64,000 bases of DNA, taken from the NCBI GenBank assembly GCA_016841425.1, contig JAENZE010000001.1, forward strand, positions 186,001-250,000, written 5' to 3'. Positions 29,444 to 58,779 of this stretch are shown here, piece by piece. Each line of letters starts with the position of its first letter. Within the stretch, counting starts at the first letter, position 1. Made by a program: the position numbers and the translations under genes. The notes below the pieces were generated by a model that saw only the letters and a list, made by a program, of their open reading frames with translations, ran no database searches and was not told where the DNA came from. The stretch is from Syntrophomonas sp. GTDB lineage: Bacteria; Bacillota; Syntrophomonadia; Syntrophomonadales; Syntrophomonadaceae.

Positions 29444-31396
29444 TTACTCTGGTAGAATAATACCAAATTTTTTTATTTTCTTATAAAGTGTTGTTCTGGT
29501 TATACCTAATTCTTTTGCACTTTTTGAAATGTTTCCCTGGTGTTTTTTAACTACTTCCTCAACAACTATTTTCTCGGAATCTGTAAGCGTACCTTCAGGG
29601 TTCTTGAAAATAGTATGCTTTCTATTCATGATATGAGGCGGCAGACACTCAAGCGTTATTATATTAGAATCAGAATAAACATACGCCCTCTCAATGACGT
29701 TTTTTAATTCGCGAATATTTCCAGGCCATGGGTAGTTTTGCATCTGCCGCATTGCCTCTTTGCTGAATTTAACGTCTGTTTGGCCATAACTGCTGCAGAT
29801 TTGGTTAAGTATATAGGAGACAAGTAACGGAATATCATCCAAACGTTCTCGCAGTGGAGGCATTTGTATCTGAAGAACATTGAGGCGATAGTATAAATCT
29901 TCTCTAAAATTGCCTCGAATAACTTCCTGGTATAAATCTCTATTGGTAGCTGCAATAATTCGAATATCTACCTTAATGGAACGATTTCCCCCTACCCGTG
30001 TAATAGTTCTGTCTTCGAGAAAGCGTAATAAGGCGACCTGCATGGACAAGGGCATTTCTCCAATTTCATCTAAGAAAAGGGTACCTTTATCGGCAAGTTC
30101 AAATTTACCAGGCTGTCCACCTCTTTTGGCACCGGTAAAAGAACCTTCTTCATAACCAAATAATTCACTCTGTAATAAATCTTTGGGGATGGCGCCGCAG
30201 TTGACTGCTATGAATGGACCATCAGGACGGCTGTCTATATGAATAGCATTTGCCATTAAATCCTTACCGGTACCACTTTCGCCTTCTATCAGTACATTGC
30301 TTAGGGATTTAGCAGACTTTTGGGCTAATTTCATGGCCATTATGAAAGCCTTGCTCTCACCTACCATTTTCTCATAGGGATTGCTTGGAACGCTGCAGCA
30401 TGACAAATCTTTCCAGCACATGGTATTAATACTGAGCTTGTTGATGTTTTCAAAAGTAAAAAGAATTAAGGGTTGATAGTTTTGCGGGCCAATGAGCAAT
30501 TTTTTGTTCAAATAGAATGAATGAATCGGCTTATCATGTTTAGGCTTACCTTTAGTAATACCAATATTAGAAAACGTACTTGATCTGGGTGGGATGGAAA
30601 ATATATCTTCGAAATCAACATTACCAGATAAATAATGCCTGATACTTTTTCCAATCAATTCGTCTCGTGGAACCTCTGTATAATTCAAAAACTCTTGGGT
30701 GGCATTAATAATAATGCCATCCTTGTTGATGAGAACACTTATATCTCCAACAGTACTTAAGAAAATATCTGTATTATACTCCATAATTTGTACAGGTAAG
30801 TAACGCGACTGTATAAGTCTGGCTCCAAGATTAACCATTGGTATAGCTGATGGAAGTCTGCCAGTCAAGTTAACTACACCTAGTACTCCAGCTACACTAT
30901 TGTCGACGTTGAAAATACCAGCGGCTATAGTATGCCAGTCGTGAGCAGACGGATATAGGTGCTCATATCCATTTACCTCCGTTACCAATCCTTGCCGCAA
31001 TGCAAGTCCTATAGCAGTGGTGCCGGTACAAGTTTCATGGCAGGAACTGCCCAATTGTATTGAATCATGCCCTCGGTTAATAAAGTCTATAACATCACCT
31101 TCACTATCAACAAACAAGACAATATAACGGTTTGAAATATTCTTAATAATTTCGTCTAAATCTTCTATCACCGGGTGGGAAACTTCGATCAGTTTTCTAT
31201 TCTTTTTTCTCTTTAATTGAACGATTTTTTCTGGAAGGATTTCGTTCGGGTTCGCAGGGTCATTAATTTTGCGGCATCTAACCCAGGAATCCGCTATTTC
31301 CGGCCGTAATACATCTTTGGAAATAATACCTTTATGAATAAATGATTTCCATGCATGTTCGAGCTTATCGTTATTAATTATACCGGTTGAATACAA
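29444..31396 (-). CDS. Sigma-54-dependent activator, AcoR-like (GAF-PAS-AAA-Fis)
   Basis: A 650-residue enhancer-binding protein. The N-terminal region (about 70-200) is GAF-like with a C-H-E-T-C-T-G-T-T segment, then PAS (about 210-320), AAA+ (about 340-570: GESGTGKD, Walker [13 protein letters not shown]-finger region) and a Fis-type HTH (NISKSAKELGITRTTLYKKIKKFG). The sigma-54 contact loop reads GSFTGA rather than the common GAFTGA. The start is TTG 31396 with GGAGG 10 bases upstream. Divergent from a consensus sigma-54 promoter at 31815, its likely target. The signal may be a metabolite sensed by GAF or PAS. Confidence 0.93.
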   Translation of the reverse strand: MYSTGIINNDKLEHAWKSFIHKGIISKDVLRPEIADSWVRCRKINDPANPNEILPEKIVQLKRKKNRKLIEVSHPVIEDLDEIIKNISNRYIVLFVDSEGDVIDFINRGHDSIQLGSSCHETCTGTTAIGLALRQGLVTEVNGYEHLYPSAHDWHTIAAGIFNVDNSVAGVLGVVNLTGRLPSAIPMVNLGARLIQSRYLPVQIMEYNTDIFLSTVGDISVLINKDGIIINATQEFLNYTEVPRDELIGKSIRHYLSGNVDFEDIFSIPPRSSTFSNIGITKGKPKHDKPIHSFYLNKKLLIGPQNYQPLILFTFENINKLSINTMCWKDLSCCSVPSNPYEKMVGESKAFIMAMKLAQKSAKSLSNVLIEGESGTGKDLMANAIHIDSRPDGPFIAVNCGAIPKDLLQSELFGYEEGSFTGAKRGGQPGKFELADKGTLFLDEIGEMPLSMQVALLRFLEDRTITRVGGNRSIKVDIRIIAATNRDLYQEVIRGNFREDLYYRLNVLQIQMPPLRERLDDIPLLVSYILNQICSSYGQTDVKFSKEAMRQMQNYPWPGNIRELKNVIERAYVYSDSNIITLECLPPHIMNRKHTIFKNPEGTLTDSEKIVVEEVVKKHQGNISKSAKELGITRTTLYKKIKKFGIILPE

Positions 31397-32050
31397 AGAT
31401 TATGCACCTCCTGTTGTTAAACAAAAAACCGTAGAAACTACTGTCTAATAACTGCACAATGTACATTTAATAGACACTGATGCCTGGCATACTCTTTATC
31501 GATATTGTTGTTATTCCAGCTTCATCTTGATTGGAATCAAGTAATTAACGGTTAGCTTCGGAGGAAATAGATCACTATCCAACTTTTTTTCATTATAACA
31601 GAGTTGTCCATGGTTTTGGAACAGGGTAGATGTATCAAAAAAATGGATGAGTAATTTAGGTATTTTTAGTTAGTACGTATGGAGCAGTAAGTTGAATAGT
31701 GTATACACATTTTTTGTCTACAACGCACTACCAGATTATTTTATTTATTAAGTTAATGGCTTGATAAACCCTATGCTGCTGGGTATTCAGTGTATGAATA
31801 AGATACATATAACCTTGGCACATTTATTGCACTTATTTGTATGCAACGGTCAGGTGCAGGAGATGATAAATCACTATTTATCTTTTATAGGAGGTGTATG
31901 CACTTACAATCGGTTCAACCCGTACATTTGACATAAACATTATTGAAGCGGAGTGATGTAAGGAATTAGTGGAATATCATCTGCCCTATGTAAGAATGCA
32001 ATCCAGAAAGAGGGAGAAATTGACCTGATTAACAGAAAGGAGAATGAATA
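31397..32050. other. Divergent regulatory region
   Basis: Between the activator and the duplicated gene block. It holds the palindrome GTGTATACAC at 31699-31708 (possible activator site, about 110 bases before the promoter), the sigma-54 promoter and a 12-codon frame at 31898-31936 behind AGGAGGTGT that could be a leader. Otherwise nothing. Confidence 0.5.
31815..31831 (+). promoter_or_regulatory. Sigma-54 promoter of the duplicated block
   Basis: TTGGCAC-ATTTA-TTGCA is a full match to the -24/-12 consensus; GG (31817-31818) and GC (31829-31830) are separated by exactly 10 bases. Confidence 0.9.
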
Positions 32051-32773
32051 ATGGCAGAGGCAAAAAGATTGTTTACGGAAGCTGAACTTGAGGAAATGAA
32101 AAAAGATCATATTATGATCGCGAGAGAAGCCTTGGACAAGGGTGACATTGAAAAGGCCAGATATTGGCTGGACAGAAATGATGCAACTAAATATTGGATT
32201 CATGATCATTATGTACACTGGGTAACGTCTCTTTTCACGTATATTCAGAAAAATTGGGGCGATGAGCAAGTTTCAGACGCAATTAAGGAGACTTATTTCC
32301 TTCCGCTACTAGGTCTTGAAAAAGCCCGGAAGGAACTGGGGGTAAAAGCATATATAGAATTGTGGGTAGATGCTTTGATCAGACATCATGCCATGATGCC
32401 AGGTTTCAATATTGAGGAAGATGACGAAAAGTTCATTTTTACCTTTGGCAAATGCGGCAGCGGGGGATATTTGATAGATCGAGGAGCTTATGGCGGAAAG
32501 TTTGGTTATGGCGTTATGAAGGGACCGAGCACTGATACCTGGGGTGAAGAAAATGTGCCCCTGTACTGCACTCACTGTGTTTGGGTAGAGAGATGGTCCT
32601 GCCTGTTAAGTGGAGAAGGCGCACAAAATATAGTCATTGCCAACCGCAAGAAACTTCCCGGAGAGGCATGCACCCTTTACTTTTATAAAGATGCCTCAAA
32701 AGTTCCCGAAGAGTACCTTGACCGTATTGGCATGAATCAAACCTACTGGCACGAAGAGCCAAAGAATAAATAG
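32051..32773 (+). CDS. Unrecognised Cys/His-rich 240-residue protein, copy 1
   Basis: I do not recognise the family. The protein is soluble, with no signal or membrane segment. The first 60 residues are helical and charged and end in IHDHYVHW (His51, His53, His56). A second part has RHH (111-113), and GKCGSGGY (133-140) followed by a Gly/Tyr-rich stretch. LYCTHCVWVERWSC (171-184) carries a C-x2-C pair with a third Cys, and Cys207 lies near the end. The His and Cys groups could bind a metal or serve thiol chemistry; this is inference. Strong ribosome site AAAGGAG. First gene downstream of a consensus sigma-54 promoter and paired with a SnoaL-like gene. Confidence 0.88.
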   Translation: MAEAKRLFTEAELEEMKKDHIMIAREALDKGDIEKARYWLDRNDATKYWIHDHYVHWVTSLFTYIQKNWGDEQVSDAIKETYFLPLLGLEKARKELGVKAYIELWVDALIRHHAMMPGFNIEEDDEKFIFTFGKCGSGGYLIDRGAYGGKFGYGVMKGPSTDTWGEENVPLYCTHCVWVERWSCLLSGEGAQNIVIANRKKLPGEACTLYFYKDASKVPEEYLDRIGMNQTYWHEEPKNK

Positions 32774-32781
32774 TCTAAAGC

Positions 32782-32810
32782 CCTGCTCTGCTCATGAAGA
32801 GCGGAGCAGG
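32782..32810 (+). other. Intercistronic hairpin, copy 1
   Basis: CCTGCTCTGCTC-N5-GAGCGGAGCAGG, a 12-bp stem with one wobble and no T run. It more likely stabilises the upstream mRNA or tunes expression than ends transcription. Also present at 34127-34155. Confidence 0.6.
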
Positions 32811-32852
32811 TTGGATACCTGGATTAAGACATGAAAACAAGGAGGGAACTAG

Positions 32853-33335
32853 ATGAATGACTTAGAAAAACGGATTCAAACGCTGGAAGATATTGAATCT
32901 ATAAAGAAACTAAAGATGTTGTATTGTTATTACTCGGATGCGGCTTTATCTCAAAATCAAGGCCAATATGATGAACTGGTTTCTTTATTTACCGATGATG
33001 CTCGTATAGAGTTTATAGGGTTCGGCGTGTGGAATGGAAAAGACGAGGTAAAAAAGTTCTTTACCGAGACCGTTTTCCCTCTATGGAGTTATCATTCGCA
33101 TATGGTAATGAACCCTATTATTGAAGTGAATGTAAATAGAGCCAATGGCAACTGGTATTGCCTTGCACTGTCCACTACCAGGAACGGAAACCGGGCAGTA
33201 TGGGTGCACGGAAAGTACGAAGAAGAATATGTGAAAGTGGCAGGCCAGTGGATGTGGAAATCGATTACTTTCATTCCCGACTTTTATAGCCCGTACGAAG
33301 ATGGATGGGCAAAAACAGCATTTATAACCCTGTAA
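32853..33335 (+). CDS. SnoaL-like/BaiE-like (NTF2-fold) protein, paralog 1
   Basis: A 160-residue cone-shaped NTF2/SnoaL-type protein. The N-terminal helix LEKRIQTLEDIESIKKLKMLYCYYSD matches bile-acid 7-alpha-dehydratase BaiE and scytalone-dehydratase relatives. Tyr24, Asp29 and His83 stand at the spacing of the BaiE catalytic Tyr/Asp/His set, so dehydratase or isomerase chemistry is plausible. AAGGAGGGAAC precedes the start. The first 44 bases are inside the direct repeat; the rest is distinct from paralog 2. Confidence 0.86.
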   Translation: MNDLEKRIQTLEDIESIKKLKMLYCYYSDAALSQNQGQYDELVSLFTDDARIEFIGFGVWNGKDEVKKFFTETVFPLWSYHSHMVMNPIIEVNVNRANGNWYCLALSTTRNGNRAVWVHGKYEEEYVKVAGQWMWKSITFIPDFYSPYEDGWAKTAFITL

Positions 33336-33395
33336 CGATTCTTGTGAGTATTCATTTTACAAGCAATACCTGAAGTCTAGAAAGGAGAATGAATA

Positions 33396-34118
33396 ATGGC
33401 AGAGGCAAAAAGATTGTTTACGGAAGCTGAACTTGAGGAAATGAAAAAAGATCATATTATGATCGCGAGAGAAGCCTTGGACAAGGGTGACATTGAAAAG
33501 GCCAGATATTGGCTGGACAGAAATGATGCAACTAAATATTGGATTCATGATCATTATGTACACTGGGTAACGTCTCTTTTCACGTATATTCAGAAAAATT
33601 GGGGCGATGAGCAAGTTTCAGACGCAATTAAGGAGACTTATTTCCTTCCGCTACTAGGTCTTGAAAAAGCCCGGAAGGAACTGGGGGTAAAAGCATATAT
33701 AGAATTGTGGGTAGATGCTTTGATCAGACATCATGCCATGATGCCAGGTTTCAATATTGAGGAAGATGACGAAAAGTTCATTTTTACCTTTGGCAAATGC
33801 GGCAGCGGGGGATATTTGATAGATCGAGGAGCTTATGGCGGAAAGTTTGGTTATGGCGTTATGAAGGGACCGAGCACTGATACCTGGGGTGAAGAAAATG
33901 TGCCCCTGTACTGCACTCACTGTGTTTGGGTAGAGAGATGGTCCTGCCTGTTAAGTGGAGAAGGCGCACAAAATATAGTCATTGCCAACCGCAAGAAACT
34001 TCCCGGAGAGGCATGCACCCTTTACTTTTATAAAGATGCCTCAAAAGTTCCCGAAGAGTACCTTGACCGTATTGGCATGAATCAAACCTACTGGCACGAA
34101 GAGCCAAAGAATAAATAG
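33396..34118 (+). CDS. Unrecognised Cys/His-rich 240-residue protein, copy 2
   Basis: Encodes exactly the same 240 residues as the gene at 32051, from the same nucleotides, including silent positions. With a diverged paralog on each side, this points to recent gene conversion or duplication, or to strong selection for dosage. An assembly artefact is less likely, since the flanks differ on both sides. Function unknown, as for copy 1. Confidence 0.88.
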   Translation: MAEAKRLFTEAELEEMKKDHIMIAREALDKGDIEKARYWLDRNDATKYWIHDHYVHWVTSLFTYIQKNWGDEQVSDAIKETYFLPLLGLEKARKELGVKAYIELWVDALIRHHAMMPGFNIEEDDEKFIFTFGKCGSGGYLIDRGAYGGKFGYGVMKGPSTDTWGEENVPLYCTHCVWVERWSCLLSGEGAQNIVIANRKKLPGEACTLYFYKDASKVPEEYLDRIGMNQTYWHEEPKNK

Positions 34119-34126
34119 TCTAAAGC

Positions 34127-34155
34127 CCTGCTCTGCTCATGAAGAGCGGAGCAGG
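34127..34155 (+). other. Intercistronic hairpin, copy 2
   Basis: Same 12-bp stem as at 32782-32810. Confidence 0.6.
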
Positions 34156-34197
34156 TTGGATACCTGGATTAAGACATGAAAACAAGGAGGGAACTAG

Positions 34198-34680
34198 ATG
34201 AATGACTTAGAAAAACGGATTCAAACGCTGGAAGATATTGAGTCTATAAAGAAATTAAGGTCTATGTATAGCTATCTAGTTGATGCCGGTATAGCTGGAG
34301 ATGAAACAAAATACGATGAACTCGCATCGCACTTCGTAGACGAAGGTTGGCTGGATTATGGACCATTTGGTGTTCACAGGGGTAAAGAGGCGATTGTGGG
34401 ATTTTTTAAGGAAGCTGTTAACACGATATTTTCCTATGGCTCTCATATGAATATGAATTCAATTATTGAAGTAGATGGAGACCAAGCAACTGGTAAATGG
34501 TATGTGCTGGCCCCTGGAATTACCCGGAGCGGCAACCGGGCAACTATTACACATGGAAAATATGACGAAGTTTATGTGAAAGTAAGAGGAGAATGGAAGT
34601 GGAAGTCAATTATATTTACTGCTGACTTCCTAACTCCTCTGGATGAAGGATGGGCTAAAACGCCATTCATAAGTTCATAA
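34198..34680 (+). CDS. SnoaL-like/BaiE-like (NTF2-fold) protein, paralog 2
   Basis: 160 residues, same length as paralog 1 and the same first 20 amino acids (LEKRIQTLEDIESIKKL), then clearly diverged (YSYLVDAGIAGDETKYDELASHF). Tyr24, Asp29 and His83 are conserved, as are GNRA and HGKY in the C-terminal half, so both paralogs probably keep the active site. Two different SnoaL-like partners beside identical 240-residue proteins suggest two activities sharing one helper, or a hetero-complex. Substrate unknown. Confidence 0.86.
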   Translation: MNDLEKRIQTLEDIESIKKLRSMYSYLVDAGIAGDETKYDELASHFVDEGWLDYGPFGVHRGKEAIVGFFKEAVNTIFSYGSHMNMNSIIEVDGDQATGKWYVLAPGITRSGNRATITHGKYDEVYVKVRGEWKWKSIIFTADFLTPLDEGWAKTPFISS

Positions 34681-34867
34681 ATTCTAGGGGGGGAGGCCGT
34701 ACATCGTTTTCCAATCATTCTTTCAGATTATCGAAGAGTAATCAAGGATGGAGTAGCAAAATATTGATTCTTTGAGGGGATTCAGAAAATGCATAGAGAG
34801 AGGCTTTTAACGATAGGAAGGTCTTTCGCAATTAGATATTAAAGCAAATATCAATCAGGAGGCTGAC

Positions 34868-35632
34868 ATGAGTAAGACCATAGTATGTTACAAATGGGTA
34901 AAAGATGAGGCGGATATCAAGGTTAATCCAGACTTATCTGTAGATTTAAGTAAAGCAAAAGGCAAAATAAGTGACTATGACAAAAATGCTATTGAAGCAG
35001 CCGTGCAGGCGGCCCGTTTATTAGCGGGCAAATCTATTGGTTTGACTTTTGGTACCCCTAAAACCAAACAATCCTTAAAAGATGCTTTATCCAGAGGGTT
35101 GGAAGAAGTTTGCTGGATAAATACAGAAGCAGCAGCCGAAGCAGACGGAATTGTAACATCCAAAGCACTGGCAGCAGCGATAAAAAAAATGGATGATGTT
35201 AGTCTGGTAATATGTGCGGAAGGTGCAAGTGATACCTATGCCAGGCAGACAGCGCCCAGGCTGGGTGCTCTTCTGCAGTGGCCTGTCATAACCTCAGTAT
35301 CAAAAATACAGATTAATGGAGATATATTGAGCGCTTCAAGAAAACTGGATGACTGTATAGAGACTGTAAAAGTAAAACTGCCAGCCGTAATTGCAGTACT
35401 GCCGGAAATATGCAATGCACCTATACCTGGCTTAAAAGCAGTTATGGCTGCAGGCAAGAAACCGATTGCTGAATACCAGGCCGGAGATATCGGGATTGAT
35501 TTCACATCTAAATCTCAGGTGAGTGGTTTAAAAGCATATGCAATGAACCGAAAGAACATTATTCTGGAGGGCGATACGTCTGAAAAAATTGCATCCTTGG
35601 TGGCGGCACTAAAGAAGGAAGGTGTTCTTTAA
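34868..35632 (+). CDS. etfB: Electron-transfer flavoprotein beta subunit (FixA)
   Basis: A 254-residue EtfB/FixA protein. The opening IVCYKWVKDEADIKVN, the DKNAIEAAVQAARLL nucleotide-binding stretch and the IVTSKALAAAIKK region are typical; SDTYARQTAPRLGALLQWP marks the FAD/AMP-binding part. It carries the AMP or second flavin. AGGAGG before the ATG. Its stop overlaps the next gene's ATG by one base. Part of a FixABCX-type cluster. Confidence 0.94.
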   Translation: MSKTIVCYKWVKDEADIKVNPDLSVDLSKAKGKISDYDKNAIEAAVQAARLLAGKSIGLTFGTPKTKQSLKDALSRGLEEVCWINTEAAAEADGIVTSKALAAAIKKMDDVSLVICAEGASDTYARQTAPRLGALLQWPVITSVSKIQINGDILSASRKLDDCIETVKVKLPAVIAVLPEICNAPIPGLKAVMAAGKKPIAEYQAGDIGIDFTSKSQVSGLKAYAMNRKNIILEGDTSEKIASLVAALKKEGVL

Positions 35633-36546
35633 TGGCAGGCATTTATGTATACAGTGACCAGAGCAGAATTACAGCAGAACTTATCAGCTTTGCCCGGCAG
35701 ACGGGAGCCGCAGCTTTTGCACTTTGCTTTTCTATAGAGCAAGCTAAAGCGATTAAGGATTTTGGAGCTGATAAAGTTTATGTACTGCAGGGAGGCAGCC
35801 CCCTGGTTGAAAACTACGGCAGGGCGGTTGCGGATTTCTTAAAAAGCCAGGGAGCAGATCTGTTCTTAGTAGGAGCAACAGCCAGGGGGCGGGATATTGC
35901 ATCCAGGGTGGCTGGACATTCTGATTGCGGTATGGTAAGTGATGTATCATCCGTAAGTTGGACGGAGGGCAGGGTGAGCTGTGAAAGACTGATGTATGGC
36001 GGGGCCGTAATCCAGGAAGAATTACTTTCCGGCTTTTGTGTAGTCAGCATACCGGCAGGTAAATTTGAAGCTGAAACAGGTGAGTCTTCAGAAATAGTAG
36101 TTGTAGAAGTAGAGGCTGATAACCGGGTAATCCTGGTTGATACTGCACCCATCGTGAGGGAAGGAGCAGACCTTTCAGCAGCAGATAAAGTGATATGCGT
36201 AGGTCTGGGAATAGAAAAGGAAGAGGACTTGCAGCTGGCGAAAGATTTGGCTGATGTATTGGGAGCTGAAATAGGCTGTACCCGGGGAATATCTGAAGAA
36301 AGACACTGGCTTCCGGTTGAAAAATATATCGGCATATCTGGTGCTGCAATAAAACCGCAATTGTATATATCCATGGGTGTATCAGGACAGGTACAGCATG
36401 TAGTAGGTATTCGGGAATCAAAAATAATAGTAGCTGTAGATACAAATGAGAAAGCGCCTATTTTTAGAGCTGCTGATTATGGCATAGTGGGTGACTTGTA
36501 CGAAATCATCCCTCTGTTAACCCGGGCATTGAAGAAAGATTTATAA
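35632..36546 (+). CDS. etfA: Electron-transfer flavoprotein alpha subunit (FixB)
   Basis: A 304-residue EtfA/FixB. The C-terminal FAD site MGVSGQVQHVVGIRESKIIVAVDTNEKAPIFRAADYGIVGDLYEIIPLL (about residues 248-297) is intact. Partner of EtfB. With the FixC-like and FixX-like genes it could route electrons from an acyl-CoA dehydrogenase or NADH to quinone or ferredoxin. Confidence 0.95.
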   Translation: MAGIYVYSDQSRITAELISFARQTGAAAFALCFSIEQAKAIKDFGADKVYVLQGGSPLVENYGRAVADFLKSQGADLFLVGATARGRDIASRVAGHSDCGMVSDVSSVSWTEGRVSCERLMYGGAVIQEELLSGFCVVSIPAGKFEAETGESSEIVVVEVEADNRVILVDTAPIVREGADLSAADKVICVGLGIEKEEDLQLAKDLADVLGAEIGCTRGISEERHWLPVEKYIGISGAAIKPQLYISMGVSGQVQHVVGIRESKIIVAVDTNEKAPIFRAADYGIVGDLYEIIPLLTRALKKDL

Positions 36547-36597: not shown

Positions 36598-37890
36598 ATG
36601 AGCGAAGACGAAAAATTCGATGCAATTATTATCGGAGCCGGCCCGGCAGGGTCCGCATGCGCATATACTCTAGCCAAAGACGGCAAAGAAGTACTGGTAA
36701 TTGAGAAGGGAGATACACCAGGGAGTAAAAATCTGACCGGTGGCAGGTTTTACACCTACGCCTTAGAGATGTTAGATGCAGATTTGCTTAAAGAAGCCGC
36801 CCTGGAAAGGAAAGTTACTCATGAACAGCTCATGATGCTGAGTGGCGATAGAGGTATTACCATTGATTACTATGATCCGTCATTTAACCAGAAAGGACAT
36901 ACCCCGGTGTCCTACACTATACTGCGGGCCAGTTTTGATGAGTGGCTGGCAGGTAAAGCTGAAGAAATGGGTGCAGTGGTAGTATGTGGGGTTAAAGTTG
37001 ACGGGCTTATTGAAAAGGATGGAATGATTGTAGGAGTCATTGCTGGTGAAGATGAAATGTATGCTGATGTAGTAATAGCAGCCGATGGAGTAAATTCTCT
37101 TATTGCTCAGCATGCCGGTCTGATAAATGATATTGAGTCTCATACAGTTGGTGTGGGAATAAAGGAAGTCATAGAACTGTCCGGTAAAACCATAGAAGAA
37201 AGGTTCAATTTAAAACCCGGAGAAGGAGCAGCTCGCATGATCCTGGGTTGTACCGATGGCATTCACGGTGGAGGCTTTTTATACACCAATCAAGAGAGCA
37301 TATCCCTGGGCTGTGTTTTGATGCCGGAAGAAGCAGCTGAGAGGAAGATATCTGTACATGAAGTCTTGCAGAACCTGAAAATGCATCCAGCTGTATATCC
37401 GCTGCTTGAAGGAGGACATACGGTTGAATATGGAGCCCACCTGGTCAGTGAAGCAGGTTTTAGAGGCATACCGAAAAAGCTCTACAGGGATGGTTTTATA
37501 ATAATCGGGGATGCAGCCGGTCTGGTTATAAATACAGGCTACTCTATAAGGGGAATTGACCTGGCCATAGTCAGTGGAATAGCTGCTGCAAACGCAGTAA
37601 TTCGTGCCAATGATACAGCCAGTGTTGGTCCAGCATATATTACTGAACTGGAAAACTTAAAGCTGATACCAACTATGAAAGCAACCGATGGCTTCTTCGA
37701 GATCTTGGAAACACCATGGTTGTACGATAAACTACCCAATTTAGGAGCAGATATATGTGCCTACCTGTACAGGGAGGATGGAGAATTACCCGGCAGTATT
37801 AAAAAGGACATTCTGAAGTTGGTAAAAGCAAACGGGTTGTCAGTATTCCAGTTAGCAAAATTTGGTTTGAAAGGGGTTAGATCACTGTGA
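36598..37890 (+). CDS. fixC: FixC-like flavoprotein (ETF:quinone oxidoreductase family)
   Basis: A 430-residue FAD protein. Rossmann motif AIIIGAGPAGSACAYTLAKDG at 10-30, second FAD contact GDAAGLVINTGYSIRGIDLAIVSG about 306-330. Length and layout match FixC rather than the larger eukaryotic ETF-QO, which has a fused Fe-S domain; here that domain is the separate FixX. Overlaps FixX by four bases. Likely accepts electrons from EtfAB. Confidence 0.93.
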   Translation: MSEDEKFDAIIIGAGPAGSACAYTLAKDGKEVLVIEKGDTPGSKNLTGGRFYTYALEMLDADLLKEAALERKVTHEQLMMLSGDRGITIDYYDPSFNQKGHTPVSYTILRASFDEWLAGKAEEMGAVVVCGVKVDGLIEKDGMIVGVIAGEDEMYADVVIAADGVNSLIAQHAGLINDIESHTVGVGIKEVIELSGKTIEERFNLKPGEGAARMILGCTDGIHGGGFLYTNQESISLGCVLMPEEAAERKISVHEVLQNLKMHPAVYPLLEGGHTVEYGAHLVSEAGFRGIPKKLYRDGFIIIGDAAGLVINTGYSIRGIDLAIVSGIAAANAVIRANDTASVGPAYITELENLKLIPTMKATDGFFEILETPWLYDKLPNLGADICAYLYREDGELPGSIKKDILKLVKANGLSVFQLAKFGLKGVRSL

Positions 37891-38180
37891 GTATAGAGAA
37901 GATGGAAGCCCCTGAACTTTTAAGTCTAAATAAATTCAATGTTGACGAGCAAGAACCCCATATAGTAATAGACCAGGAAATTTGCATAACATGCGGTAAA
38001 AAACCCTGCCTTTACATCTGTCCTGCCCGGCTGTATAGGCTGGACAAAAACGAGCAGATAAGCTTCGACTATGCTGGATGCTTGGAATGCGGCACCTGTC
38101 GGGTTCTGTGCCAAAAGAAAGGTATTCTAAAGTGGGTTTACCCCCGGGGGACGTTTGGTATCAGCTTTAGATACGGGTAA
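37887..38180 (+). CDS. fixX: FixX-like ferredoxin
   Basis: A 97-residue ferredoxin-like protein. ICITCGKKPCLYICPARLY has a disrupted first Cys spacing, and GCLECGTCRVLCQKKGI gives a regular C-x2-C-x2-C. Together they could hold one [4Fe-4S] cluster, as in FixX. GTG start 37887 overlaps the FixC stop (GTGA). Completes the FixABCX-type set. In other bacteria the complex can bifurcate electrons from NADH to ferredoxin and quinone; whether it does so here is inference. Confidence 0.9.
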   Translation: MSIEKMEAPELLSLNKFNVDEQEPHIVIDQEICITCGKKPCLYICPARLYRLDKNEQISFDYAGCLECGTCRVLCQKKGILKWVYPRGTFGISFRYG

Positions 38181-38364: not shown

Positions 38365-39510
38365 ATGTATATGTGGTATATGACAGAAGAAAGAGAACTC
38401 ATGAGAAATATCGCCAGGGAGTTTACCGAGCAAGAGGTTAAACCTTTCATTGCAGAAATGGAAAATAACCATACATATCCCAGACATTTATTAAAACGTA
38501 TGGGTGAGTTGGGCTTTCAGGGACTAATATTCCCGGAAGAAATTGGAGGTATAGGCCCGGACTGGGTGACAATGGGAATCGTGTCCGAGGAGATAGCTAA
38601 GGAAAGTAATCTGGTGGCGATACTCCTAATGCTTAACACTGCCATATGTGCTGAAACTATCTATCAATTGGGCACTCCTGAACAAATAGAAAAGTGGGTT
38701 AAGCCAGCCATTACCGGGGATGTAAATCTGGCTCTTTGTCTAACTGAGCCCAATGGAATATTCAATTTTTCTGAGAACCAGACCCGTGCTGTACTGGATG
38801 GTGATAGCTGGGTTGTTAACGGGGGAAAAATATTCACTACCAATGCCGGTAATGCAGACTGCTATATTGTTGAATGTCTTACTTCAGAACCAAATCCGGA
38901 AACAATGATGGGTGTGAGTTATATATTGATACCGGCAGATACTCCGGGCTTTGAAGTTGGTCATATTGAGAATAAACTGGGCTGGCATGGTTCATCAACG
39001 GGACAAACCTATTTCAAAAACTGCCGGGTTCCTAAGGAATACCTGCTCGGTCCACAGGATACCGTATTCCCTATAATATATACAAATCTGGAAGATGAAT
39101 TCATAATGTTCGGAGCTTGCTGTCTTGGTTCGGCTGTAGGTGTTTATGAGAAAACTTTAAAATATACCCGGGAAAGAATTCAACTCGGCAAGTCAATGTT
39201 TGATACCCATCAGTCCATAAGACAGAAATTGGCACAAATGTATAGTGACATAGAAGCGTTTCGGGGAATGATGTACATGACATTAGCAATGAAGGACAAA
39301 GGAATCGACACCTTTAAACAGGCCTTTATTTGCAAGCTGCAGGGAGCCACCCTGATGGAAAGAGTTGCCAGCGAATGCATAGTACTGCATGGCGGTAATG
39401 GTACAGTAAAAGAAAATGGAATCGAAAGGTATTTTCGAGATGCGAAGATGTGCTTCCTCGCTGGAGGTTCAAATGATACCTTGCTAGATGGCTTGTCCTC
39501 ACTAATATAG
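38365..39510 (+). CDS. Acyl-CoA dehydrogenase
   Basis: A 381-residue FAD enzyme that introduces an alpha-beta double bond into an acyl-CoA. It has N-terminal helical, middle beta (LTEPNGIFNFSENQTRA.. GGKIFTTNAGNADCYIV) and C-terminal helical domains. The catalytic base is probably Glu350 in GTVKENGIERYFRDAK, at the place of the short/medium-chain enzyme Glu. The usual DxxG of the substrate pocket differs, so the acyl group cannot be inferred. Electrons would pass to the adjacent EtfAB. GGGAGG precedes ATG. Confidence 0.94.
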   Translation: MYMWYMTEERELMRNIAREFTEQEVKPFIAEMENNHTYPRHLLKRMGELGFQGLIFPEEIGGIGPDWVTMGIVSEEIAKESNLVAILLMLNTAICAETIYQLGTPEQIEKWVKPAITGDVNLALCLTEPNGIFNFSENQTRAVLDGDSWVVNGGKIFTTNAGNADCYIVECLTSEPNPETMMGVSYILIPADTPGFEVGHIENKLGWHGSSTGQTYFKNCRVPKEYLLGPQDTVFPIIYTNLEDEFIMFGACCLGSAVGVYEKTLKYTRERIQLGKSMFDTHQSIRQKLAQMYSDIEAFRGMMYMTLAMKDKGIDTFKQAFICKLQGATLMERVASECIVLHGGNGTVKENGIERYFRDAKMCFLAGGSNDTLLDGLSSLI

Positions 39511-58164: not shown

Positions 58165-58181
58165 TTGGCACAAAAATTGCT
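58165..58181 (+). promoter_or_regulatory. Sigma-54 promoter of the AOR operon
   Basis: TTGGCAC-AAAAA-TTGCT is an exact consensus; GG (58167-58168) and GC (58179-58180) are 10 bases apart. Confidence 0.92.
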
Positions 58182-58260: not shown

Positions 58261-58779
58261 GTGAATAACTGGTTTCAAGAAGTTTGGGACCAGGAAAGTA
58301 TGCACAAAGAATTAATTGTTCAGCCGGAAAGATGTACAGGGTGCCGGACCTGCGAATTGATTTGCTCGTTTGTTCATGTGCAGGAATTTGATACAACCCG
58401 CTCTAGAATTAGTGTATTCAACTTTGAAAAAGCAGGTTTTTCTGTCCCTGTAGTCTGTCAGCAGTGCAGTGTGGCGGCCTGTATGGAGGTATGCCCGGTA
58501 GAGGCTATAACTCGCAGTGATAGGACAGGGGCCATGGTTGTCAACCATGATAAGTGTTTGAGATGTAAAATGTGTACTATTGCCTGCCCGTTCGGGGCAA
58601 CTATCTACGACCCGATAAAAGATATAATAGCCAAGTGCGATCTTGGTAATGGGGATCCCATGTGTGTTAAGGTTTGTCCTTCCGGTGCCTTGACCTACCA
58701 GGAGCCCACTCAGGCTAATATCAGTAAACGTAAAGCGTACGCTGCCAGATTCAAAGCGGTTTATGAGGAGGTGGGCTAA
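58261..58779 (+). CDS. Polyferredoxin subunit of aldehyde oxidoreductase
   Basis: A 172-residue protein with four [4Fe-4S] sites: CTGCRTCELIC, CQQCSVAACMEVC, CLRCKMCTIAC, and CDLGNGDPMCVKVC (sixteen Cys). Resembles the small electron-transfer subunit (AorA type) found with bacterial aldehyde oxidoreductases. Start is GTG 58261 (AAAGG upstream) or ATG 58300; AGGAGGTGA overlaps the GTG. Ends four bases before the AOR gene, so the two are cotranscribed. Confidence 0.9.
   Translation: MNNWFQEVWDQESMHKELIVQPERCTGCRTCELICSFVHVQEFDTTRSRISVFNFEKAGFSVPVVCQQCSVAACMEVCPVEAITRSDRTGAMVVNHDKCLRCKMCTIACPFGATIYDPIKDIIAKCDLGNGDPMCVKVCPSGALTYQEPTQANISKRKAYAARFKAVYEEVG

Follow-up and report, generated by a model that had tools for sequence, protein, structure and literature searches.

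Gene conversion of tandem bacterial paralogues is described as leaving a perfectly identical tract within otherwise diverged tandem units. Such a tract was found in Syntrophomonas sp., in a 64,000-nt stretch of contig JAENZE010000001.1 (positions 186,001 to 250,000), where two genes for the same 240-residue protein (A1 and A2) alternate with two diverged SnoaL-like genes (B1 and B2). The whole stretch is referred to as the window, and all coordinates are window positions. The tract differs from the described cases by the unusually sharp contrast between neighbouring genes, with zero versus saturated synonymous divergence. The closest described proteins are the SnoaL-fold dehydratases LinA and BaiE for B1 and B2, and the V4R/XylR-N sensors MopR, DmpR and PoxR together with TRAPP Bet3 for the predicted fold of A. 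In DmpR, the zinc ligands are Cys151, Glu172, Cys177 and Cys185 (PMC7264223). The genes downstream of B2 resemble the E. coli ydiO-ydiQRST/fixABCX cassettes. The repeat and its genes are as follows:

32034-32896, + strand: repeat copy 1, an exact repeat that spans a ribosome site, all of gene A1, the A-B spacer and nt 1-44 of B1
32051-32773, + strand: gene A1, 240 aa, undescribed family with a predicted TRAPP/V4R-like fold
32853-33335, + strand: gene B1, SnoaL_4 protein (LinA/BaiE-like), with the same conserved Tyr, Asp and His as B2
33379-34241, + strand: repeat copy 2, an exact repeat that spans a ribosome site, all of gene A2, the A-B spacer and nt 1-44 of B2
33396-34118, + strand: gene A2, 240 aa, identical to A1 in sequence
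34198-34680, + strand: gene B2, SnoaL_4 protein, 55.6% identical to B1, with Y24, D29 and H83 kept

The direct repeat is exact over 863 bp with a start-to-start offset of 1345 bp, and a chance origin is excluded. The identical stretch opens shortly before the ribosome site and runs up to base 44 of the SnoaL-like gene; the first mismatch is at position 32897. Each A gene has its own AGGAG ribosome site, and the A-B spacer is 79 bp long in each unit. No further exact repeats of at least 25 nt, direct or inverted, were found in the 64-kb window, and gene A was not found elsewhere in the same genome beyond A1 and A2. A mobile-element origin of the unit was considered and set aside; no other repeats flank it.

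Between A1 and A2, 0 differences were found over 144 synonymous sites. The first 20 codons of B1 and B2 differ by two silent bases, beyond which the identity falls sharply: for codons 21-160 the proportion of synonymous differences (pS) was 0.745 and that of nonsynonymous differences (pN) 0.32. The flanks upstream of the ribosome sites have no detectable similarity between the units (flank comparison P 0.74). Two SnoaL proteins encoded in genome G517 share 54.7% and 55.3% identity with B2. G517 presumably belongs to the Desulfobacterota, since it was drawn from the same phylum as the Syntrophaceae genome G440. Because B2 is about equally close to B1 and to these two proteins, the divergence between B1 and B2 is comparable in depth to that between phyla. 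All this agrees with the first-pass annotation, which had reported identical copies followed by SnoaL-like genes that diverge after a few codons, had placed both repeat edges correctly and had pointed to gene conversion or recent duplication. That gene A was recently overwritten or re-copied from its twin, in one of these two ways, is well supported by 144 unchanged synonymous sites next to saturated B genes.

Gene conversion is the most likely mode of homogenization. A tandem duplication of the A-B gene pair would have occurred long ago, after which the B genes would have diverged to synonymous saturation. Very recently, the A genes would have been made identical again by non-reciprocal recombination between the units, in a tract that would start where homology starts, at the ribosome site, which probably marks the limit of the old duplication unit, and stop where B1 and B2 are too unlike to pair. 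The copying event itself is ordinary recombination, and the novelty lies in the protein family.

Two other origins of the repeat have to be considered. In a recent re-duplication, B1 and B2 would originally have had a single A gene, and a segment of A plus a B 5′ end would then have been copied in front of the other B through recombination at the B 5′ ends. The absence of differences between A1 and A2 is compatible with such a very recent copy, the 3′ edge of the repeat falls inside the B homology, and the family has formed A tandems more than once (L098, fused pairs). However, this origin requires a break precisely in front of the ribosome site, in sequence without detectable homology, whereas conversion accounts for both edges without extra assumptions; re-duplication is considered unlikely, although it retains a sizeable share of the probability. 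Against the preference for conversion stands the search for relatives: the first-pass annotation had suggested checking whether the pair is duplicated in related genomes, and the A-B-A-B locus was absent from four congeners and 398 genomes of the window's phylum, so that conversion is not separable from a fresh re-duplication of A. An assembly artefact, with one A gene in reality or a wrong number of units, is very improbable. An exact 863-bp tandem repeat is difficult for short reads and the assembly consists of 27 contigs, but both copies lie inside a single 481-kb contig, flanked by two B genes as different as B1 and B2 and by different downstream sequence, and a false copy would not produce a diverged B gene. 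The count of A-B1 units is provisional, since an A-B1-A-B2 tandem is a simple loop in the assembly graph that short reads can miscount.

Gene A had no match in Pfam, NCBIfam or PDB sequence searches, and no Pfam model matched six divergent A homologues. In the genome contig collection 12 loci of the family could be found. Relatives that are about 25-45% identical come from records with the labels Gammaproteobacteria, Deltaproteobacteria, Nitrospinota, Propionibacteriales, Flavonifractor, Alphaproteobacteria, Chloroflexi, Myxococcales, Desulfonema and Syntrophaceae. The family was present in 19 of 297 genomes sampled from the phylum of G431, in 2 of 398 genomes of the window's phylum (the window's own genome counted) and in none of the four congeners. 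This patchy distribution suggests horizontal transfer. Family A is undescribed, sparse and spread over multiple phyla, and it is new to the catalogues searched. The matches of four homologues (L034, L029, L047 and L062) have an in-frame stop within or beside them, which may represent frame ends, decayed genes or assembly errors.

Several genomes carry many A copies (nine matches in G517), often as fused A-A proteins or as neighbours. In a tree of 56 A domains, the window A is sister to a single A of G517 (62% identical), and the single A of the gammaproteobacterial locus L003 stands next to this pair. The fused A-A proteins of L003 and G517 cluster by half, N halves with N halves and C halves with C halves. 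In these relatives with the module, A pairs are as a rule diverged, and identical copies are seen in the window only. The earlier suggestion of selection for keeping two identical copies is therefore not supported: A copies in the other module genomes are diverged and partly fused, and identity is not a conserved feature.

At L003, a gene resembling a TonB-type receptor is followed on one strand by A-A, SnoaL and A. In G517 (locus L080), the genes are transcribed in the order A, a PaaK-like gene (labelled by eye, without a Pfam match), a hypothetical gene, an MMPL transporter, DUF1302, DUF1329-like, A-A, SnoaL and an AMP-binding coenzyme A (CoA) synthetase. A similar order of transporter, outer-membrane-type and DUF1329 genes precedes the A gene of L005. 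The DUF1302 and DUF1329 proteins AmeA and AmeB of Castellaniella are part of monoterpene metabolism (PMC6394551). Other A loci contain genes for short-chain dehydrogenase/reductase (SDR), thiolase, acyl-CoA dehydrogenase, old-yellow-enzyme-type and CaiB-type proteins and EtfAB. In the loci that were examined, SnoaL adjoins A only within the subclade around the window A. The link between the 240-residue protein and a SnoaL-like partner that had been proposed for the window is supported by two other phyla, where both are adjacent (L003, G517). Three family members (L093, L095 and L096) directly adjoin lipB-like and lipA-like genes, and two of these loci also contain a CaiB-type gene.

The SnoaL_4 domain (PF13577) was identified in B1 with an E-value of 4.5e-26 (91.8 bits) and in B2 with 4.1e-24 (85.4 bits), the curated cut-off being 24. 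In sequence searches against structures, B1 matched LinA (E 2e-09) and B2 matched BaiE (E 2e-07). Y24, D29 and H83 (B2 numbering) are invariant in a five-sequence alignment and align with Tyr, Asp and His of BaiE; we take these positions to be catalytic in BaiE and LinA. With the domain, the structure matches and the three residues in common with both enzymes, B1 and B2 are probably SnoaL-fold dehydratases or isomerases. They differ from LinA and BaiE by low identity and by the pairing with an A protein. In a single-sequence comparison within A-carrying genomes, the SnoaL proteins closest to B2 were two at the A loci of G517 (54-56%), followed by four next-scoring others (36-39%). It is safer than the profile search for B-type SnoaL genes in A-carrying and A-free genomes, which is partly circular because its alignment includes A-locus SnoaL proteins, but its candidates were drawn from that search. 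One of the two G517 genes adjoins A-A and the other is about 9 kb away from an A gene. The SnoaL protein of L003 is distant from B2 (22-26%).

Residue conservation in A was counted over the alignment of 56 A domains. C135 was found in 56 of 56 sequences, C173 and C207 in 54 each and C176 in 51. Further conserved positions are K213 and G70 (55 each), E123 (54) and H175 (46). The Cys-x2-Cys motif noticed in the first-pass annotation is a real sequence motif (Y-C173-x-H175-C176), which extends to four conserved cysteines with ligand-like substitutions: Glu is found at position 176 in three sequences and His at position 207 in one. Only two sequences are without both C173 and C176, and only these two have C138. 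Such exchanges are typical of metal ligands, and the four cysteines may form a metal site. In A1, these putative ligands, assigned by conservation, are encoded at the following positions:

32453-32455, + strand: C135
32567-32569, + strand: C173
32576-32578, + strand: C176
32669-32671, + strand: C207

The C173-C207 spacing of 34 residues is identical to that between the DmpR zinc ligands Cys151 and Cys185 (PMC7264223). The Glu and the third Cys of the V4R zinc site (Cys, Glu, Cys, Cys) are absent from A, in which C135 and C176 are conserved instead.

AlphaFold2 models were obtained for the window A (predicted local distance difference test, pLDDT, 87) and for a 35%-identical homologue (pLDDT 93); the two share most of their alignment and are not fully independent. 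The best structure matches of both include TRAPP Bet3, the phenol-sensor domains of MopR, PoxR and DmpR, and BcsD, with H-NOX lower. The Z-scores were about 5-7 for the sensors and Bet3 and reached 6.7 for the window A and 7.3 for the homologue. TRAPP, MopR/PoxR/DmpR and the other matched proteins belong to one fold class, so that the agreement of the matches weighs more than each Z-score alone. The predicted structure of A thus looks like the TRAPP/V4R/H-NOX ligand-binding fold, below the level that settles a fold. The protein had earlier been called one of unknown fold, a claim that is softened by the two models.

In an hhalign-type profile comparison, A aligned with V4R at E 0.012 and with ATC hydrolase at E 0.0035, in a common register with both alignments ending at Cys135. 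Comparisons with small V4R alignments were empty, a search for V4R domains in the window's genome gave no match at E 0.001, and a viral structure library contained no useful match to A. Since the profile scores are weak and an unrelated control reached 0.014, A is called V4R-like and is not filed as a V4R member. It resembles the V4R/XylR-N sensors in its predicted fold and shares with them the spacing of the Cys pair and an association with the breakdown of hydrophobic compounds. It differs from them by an extra N-terminal helical region, by lacking a Pfam V4R match, and by being a standalone or fused A-A protein without a DNA-binding or AAA+ domain. The likeness to the ATC_hydrolase family (PF14196) consists of the weak alignment over 77 columns to the same Cys; A has no Pfam match to this family, and the E-value comes from one comparison that is not clearly above the controls. 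The V4R (L100-L129) and ATC_hydrolase (L130-L148) alignments matched each other with an hhalign probability of 92% (E 8e-7), which suggests that ATC_hydrolase may belong to the V4R superfamily.

The repeat lies in a probable operon with the following further features:

29444-31396, - strand: divergent sigma-54-dependent activator (PAS, AAA+, PF00158, Fis-type helix-turn-helix; domain match)
31816-31831, + strand: sigma-54 (-24/-12) promoter TGGCACATTTATTGCA, exact match, with the A1 start codon about 220 bp downstream
32782-32810, + strand: strong intercistronic hairpin between A1 and B1, with a 12-bp stem and a 5-nt loop and without a U-run (z -4.2)
34127-34155, + strand: second copy of the hairpin in the A2-B2 spacer, identical to the first
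34868-35632, + strand: etfB (YdiQ/FixA-like)
35632-36546, + strand: etfA (YdiR/FixB-like)
36598-37890, + strand: FixC-like flavoprotein (YdiS-like)
37887-38180, + strand: FixX-like ferredoxin
38365-39510, + strand: acyl-CoA dehydrogenase family member, probable last operon gene

The promoter matches TGGCAC-N5-TTGCA exactly and is placed between the divergent activator gene and A1, so that both a -24/-12 promoter and a nearby activator gene, as expected of a sigma-54-dependent operon, are present. Candidate inverted repeats were found upstream of the promoter in a search for activator binding sites. The hairpin between A and B was ruled out as an intrinsic terminator because it has no U-run; an effect on RNA stability or processing is more likely. 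Rfam gave no match in 31397-34900. A second exact sigma-54 promoter match, TGGCACAAAAATTGCT, was identified at 58166-58181 upstream of the gene at 58261.

The order etfBA-fixC-fixX is shared with the E. coli ydi/fix cassettes, and the best NCBIfam matches are ydi/fix models together with acyl-CoA dehydrogenases. The cassette of the window differs by scores under the curated cut-offs, by the A-B genes in front and by the sigma-54 control. Related genomes keep the cassette with other catabolic genes, namely an enoyl-CoA hydratase and an SDR-like gene in G003, similar kinds in G005, and an acetoacetate-decarboxylase-family gene and a zinc-type alcohol dehydrogenase in G002. The A-B units seem to occupy the place of substrate-specific genes beside the cassette. 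In congeners and relatives (L173, L174, L177 and L178-L180), the etfBA-fixCX cassette is repeatedly linked to sigma-54 activators and differing catabolic genes, and appears to behave like an exchangeable module. The acyl-CoA dehydrogenase at 38365-39510 and cassette relatives (L174, L177, L178, L179 and L180) have Gly or Ala at the Glu position of YEGT, presumably the catalytic Glu of short- and medium-chain acyl-CoA dehydrogenases. A conserved Glu was found near an alternative position, which we take to be the one used by isovaleryl- and long-chain acyl-CoA dehydrogenases.

For the function of the locus, the following course is proposed. A would bind small molecules, would have a TRAPP/V4R-like fold and would contain a structural metal site with four ligands (C135, C173, C176, C207); it probably works as a dimer, as the fused A-A proteins suggest. 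It would bind or present a hydrophobic substrate, probably as a CoA thioester, which B1 or B2 would dehydrate or isomerize. The acyl-CoA dehydrogenase with EtfBA-FixCX would pass electrons from or to the product, and the sigma-54 activator would switch the operon on. Two B versions sharing the same A may widen the substrate range; the helper protein with two catalytic partners is put forward as a hypothesis. The data show the repeat, the contrast in divergence, the family with its conserved residues, the promoter match, the gene neighbourhoods and the repeated occurrence of A with SnoaL; the metal, the dimerization, the substrate class, the catalysis and the direction of conversion are the parts that we infer. 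Taken together, an old A-B duplication with recent conversion of A, in a catabolic operon that combines a V4R-like metal-site binder with SnoaL-fold dehydratases, is given about an even chance of being correct.

Several results weigh against this proposal. The Foldseek matches of A reach a probability of 0.95 but an E-value of about 0.1 at best, the fold match stays under Z 8, and the V4R and ATC profile scores are hardly better than the best of 11 unrelated control families (E 0.014). Pfam V4R (PF02830) did not match A or its six homologues at E up to 1. Furthermore, most family A members in other genomes have no neighbouring SnoaL gene, a point that also speaks for A being the enzyme itself, e.g., a metal-dependent hydrolase related to ATC hydrolase, with SnoaL as an accessory. 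The near-invariant C135, K213, E123 and D52/H51 could then be catalytic, and the weak ATC_hydrolase similarity in the V4R register fits as well. Yet the exchanges of Cys for Glu or His and the relocation to C138 resemble structural metal ligands, and B keeps the residues aligned with those of BaiE, which leaves an enzymatic A as a rather doubtful alternative. That A is a regulatory sensor, i.e., a V4R-like effector domain without its DNA-binding part that modulates the sigma-54 activator, is improbable: its closest bacterial fold matches include the effector domains of the sigma-54 activators MopR, DmpR and PoxR, but in the window A sits twice inside the regulated operon, equal in number to B, and elsewhere it travels with enzymes and transporters.

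Beyond the proposed binder and dehydratase pair, A may be the founder of an undescribed family of TRAPP/V4R-fold metalloproteins that bind substrate for SnoaL-fold enzymes, or take part in their catalysis, within an unrecognized pathway for hydrophobic compounds. The module of fused A-A, single A and SnoaL would have spread horizontally between phyla, and in the window one recombination-homogenized A would serve two diverged SnoaL enzymes. This wider reading is tentative and falls somewhat short of an even chance.

The locus is also a clear-cut example from nature of tandem units in which one gene has been kept identical and the gene next to it has diverged to saturation. Family A is new to Pfam and NCBIfam and is found in catabolic clusters of several phyla, with a near-invariant metal-like site on a fold that looks like a ligand-binding one. 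If A and SnoaL form one catalytic unit, they would offer a handle on an uncharacterized degradation step, and two genes would suffice as a simple test system.

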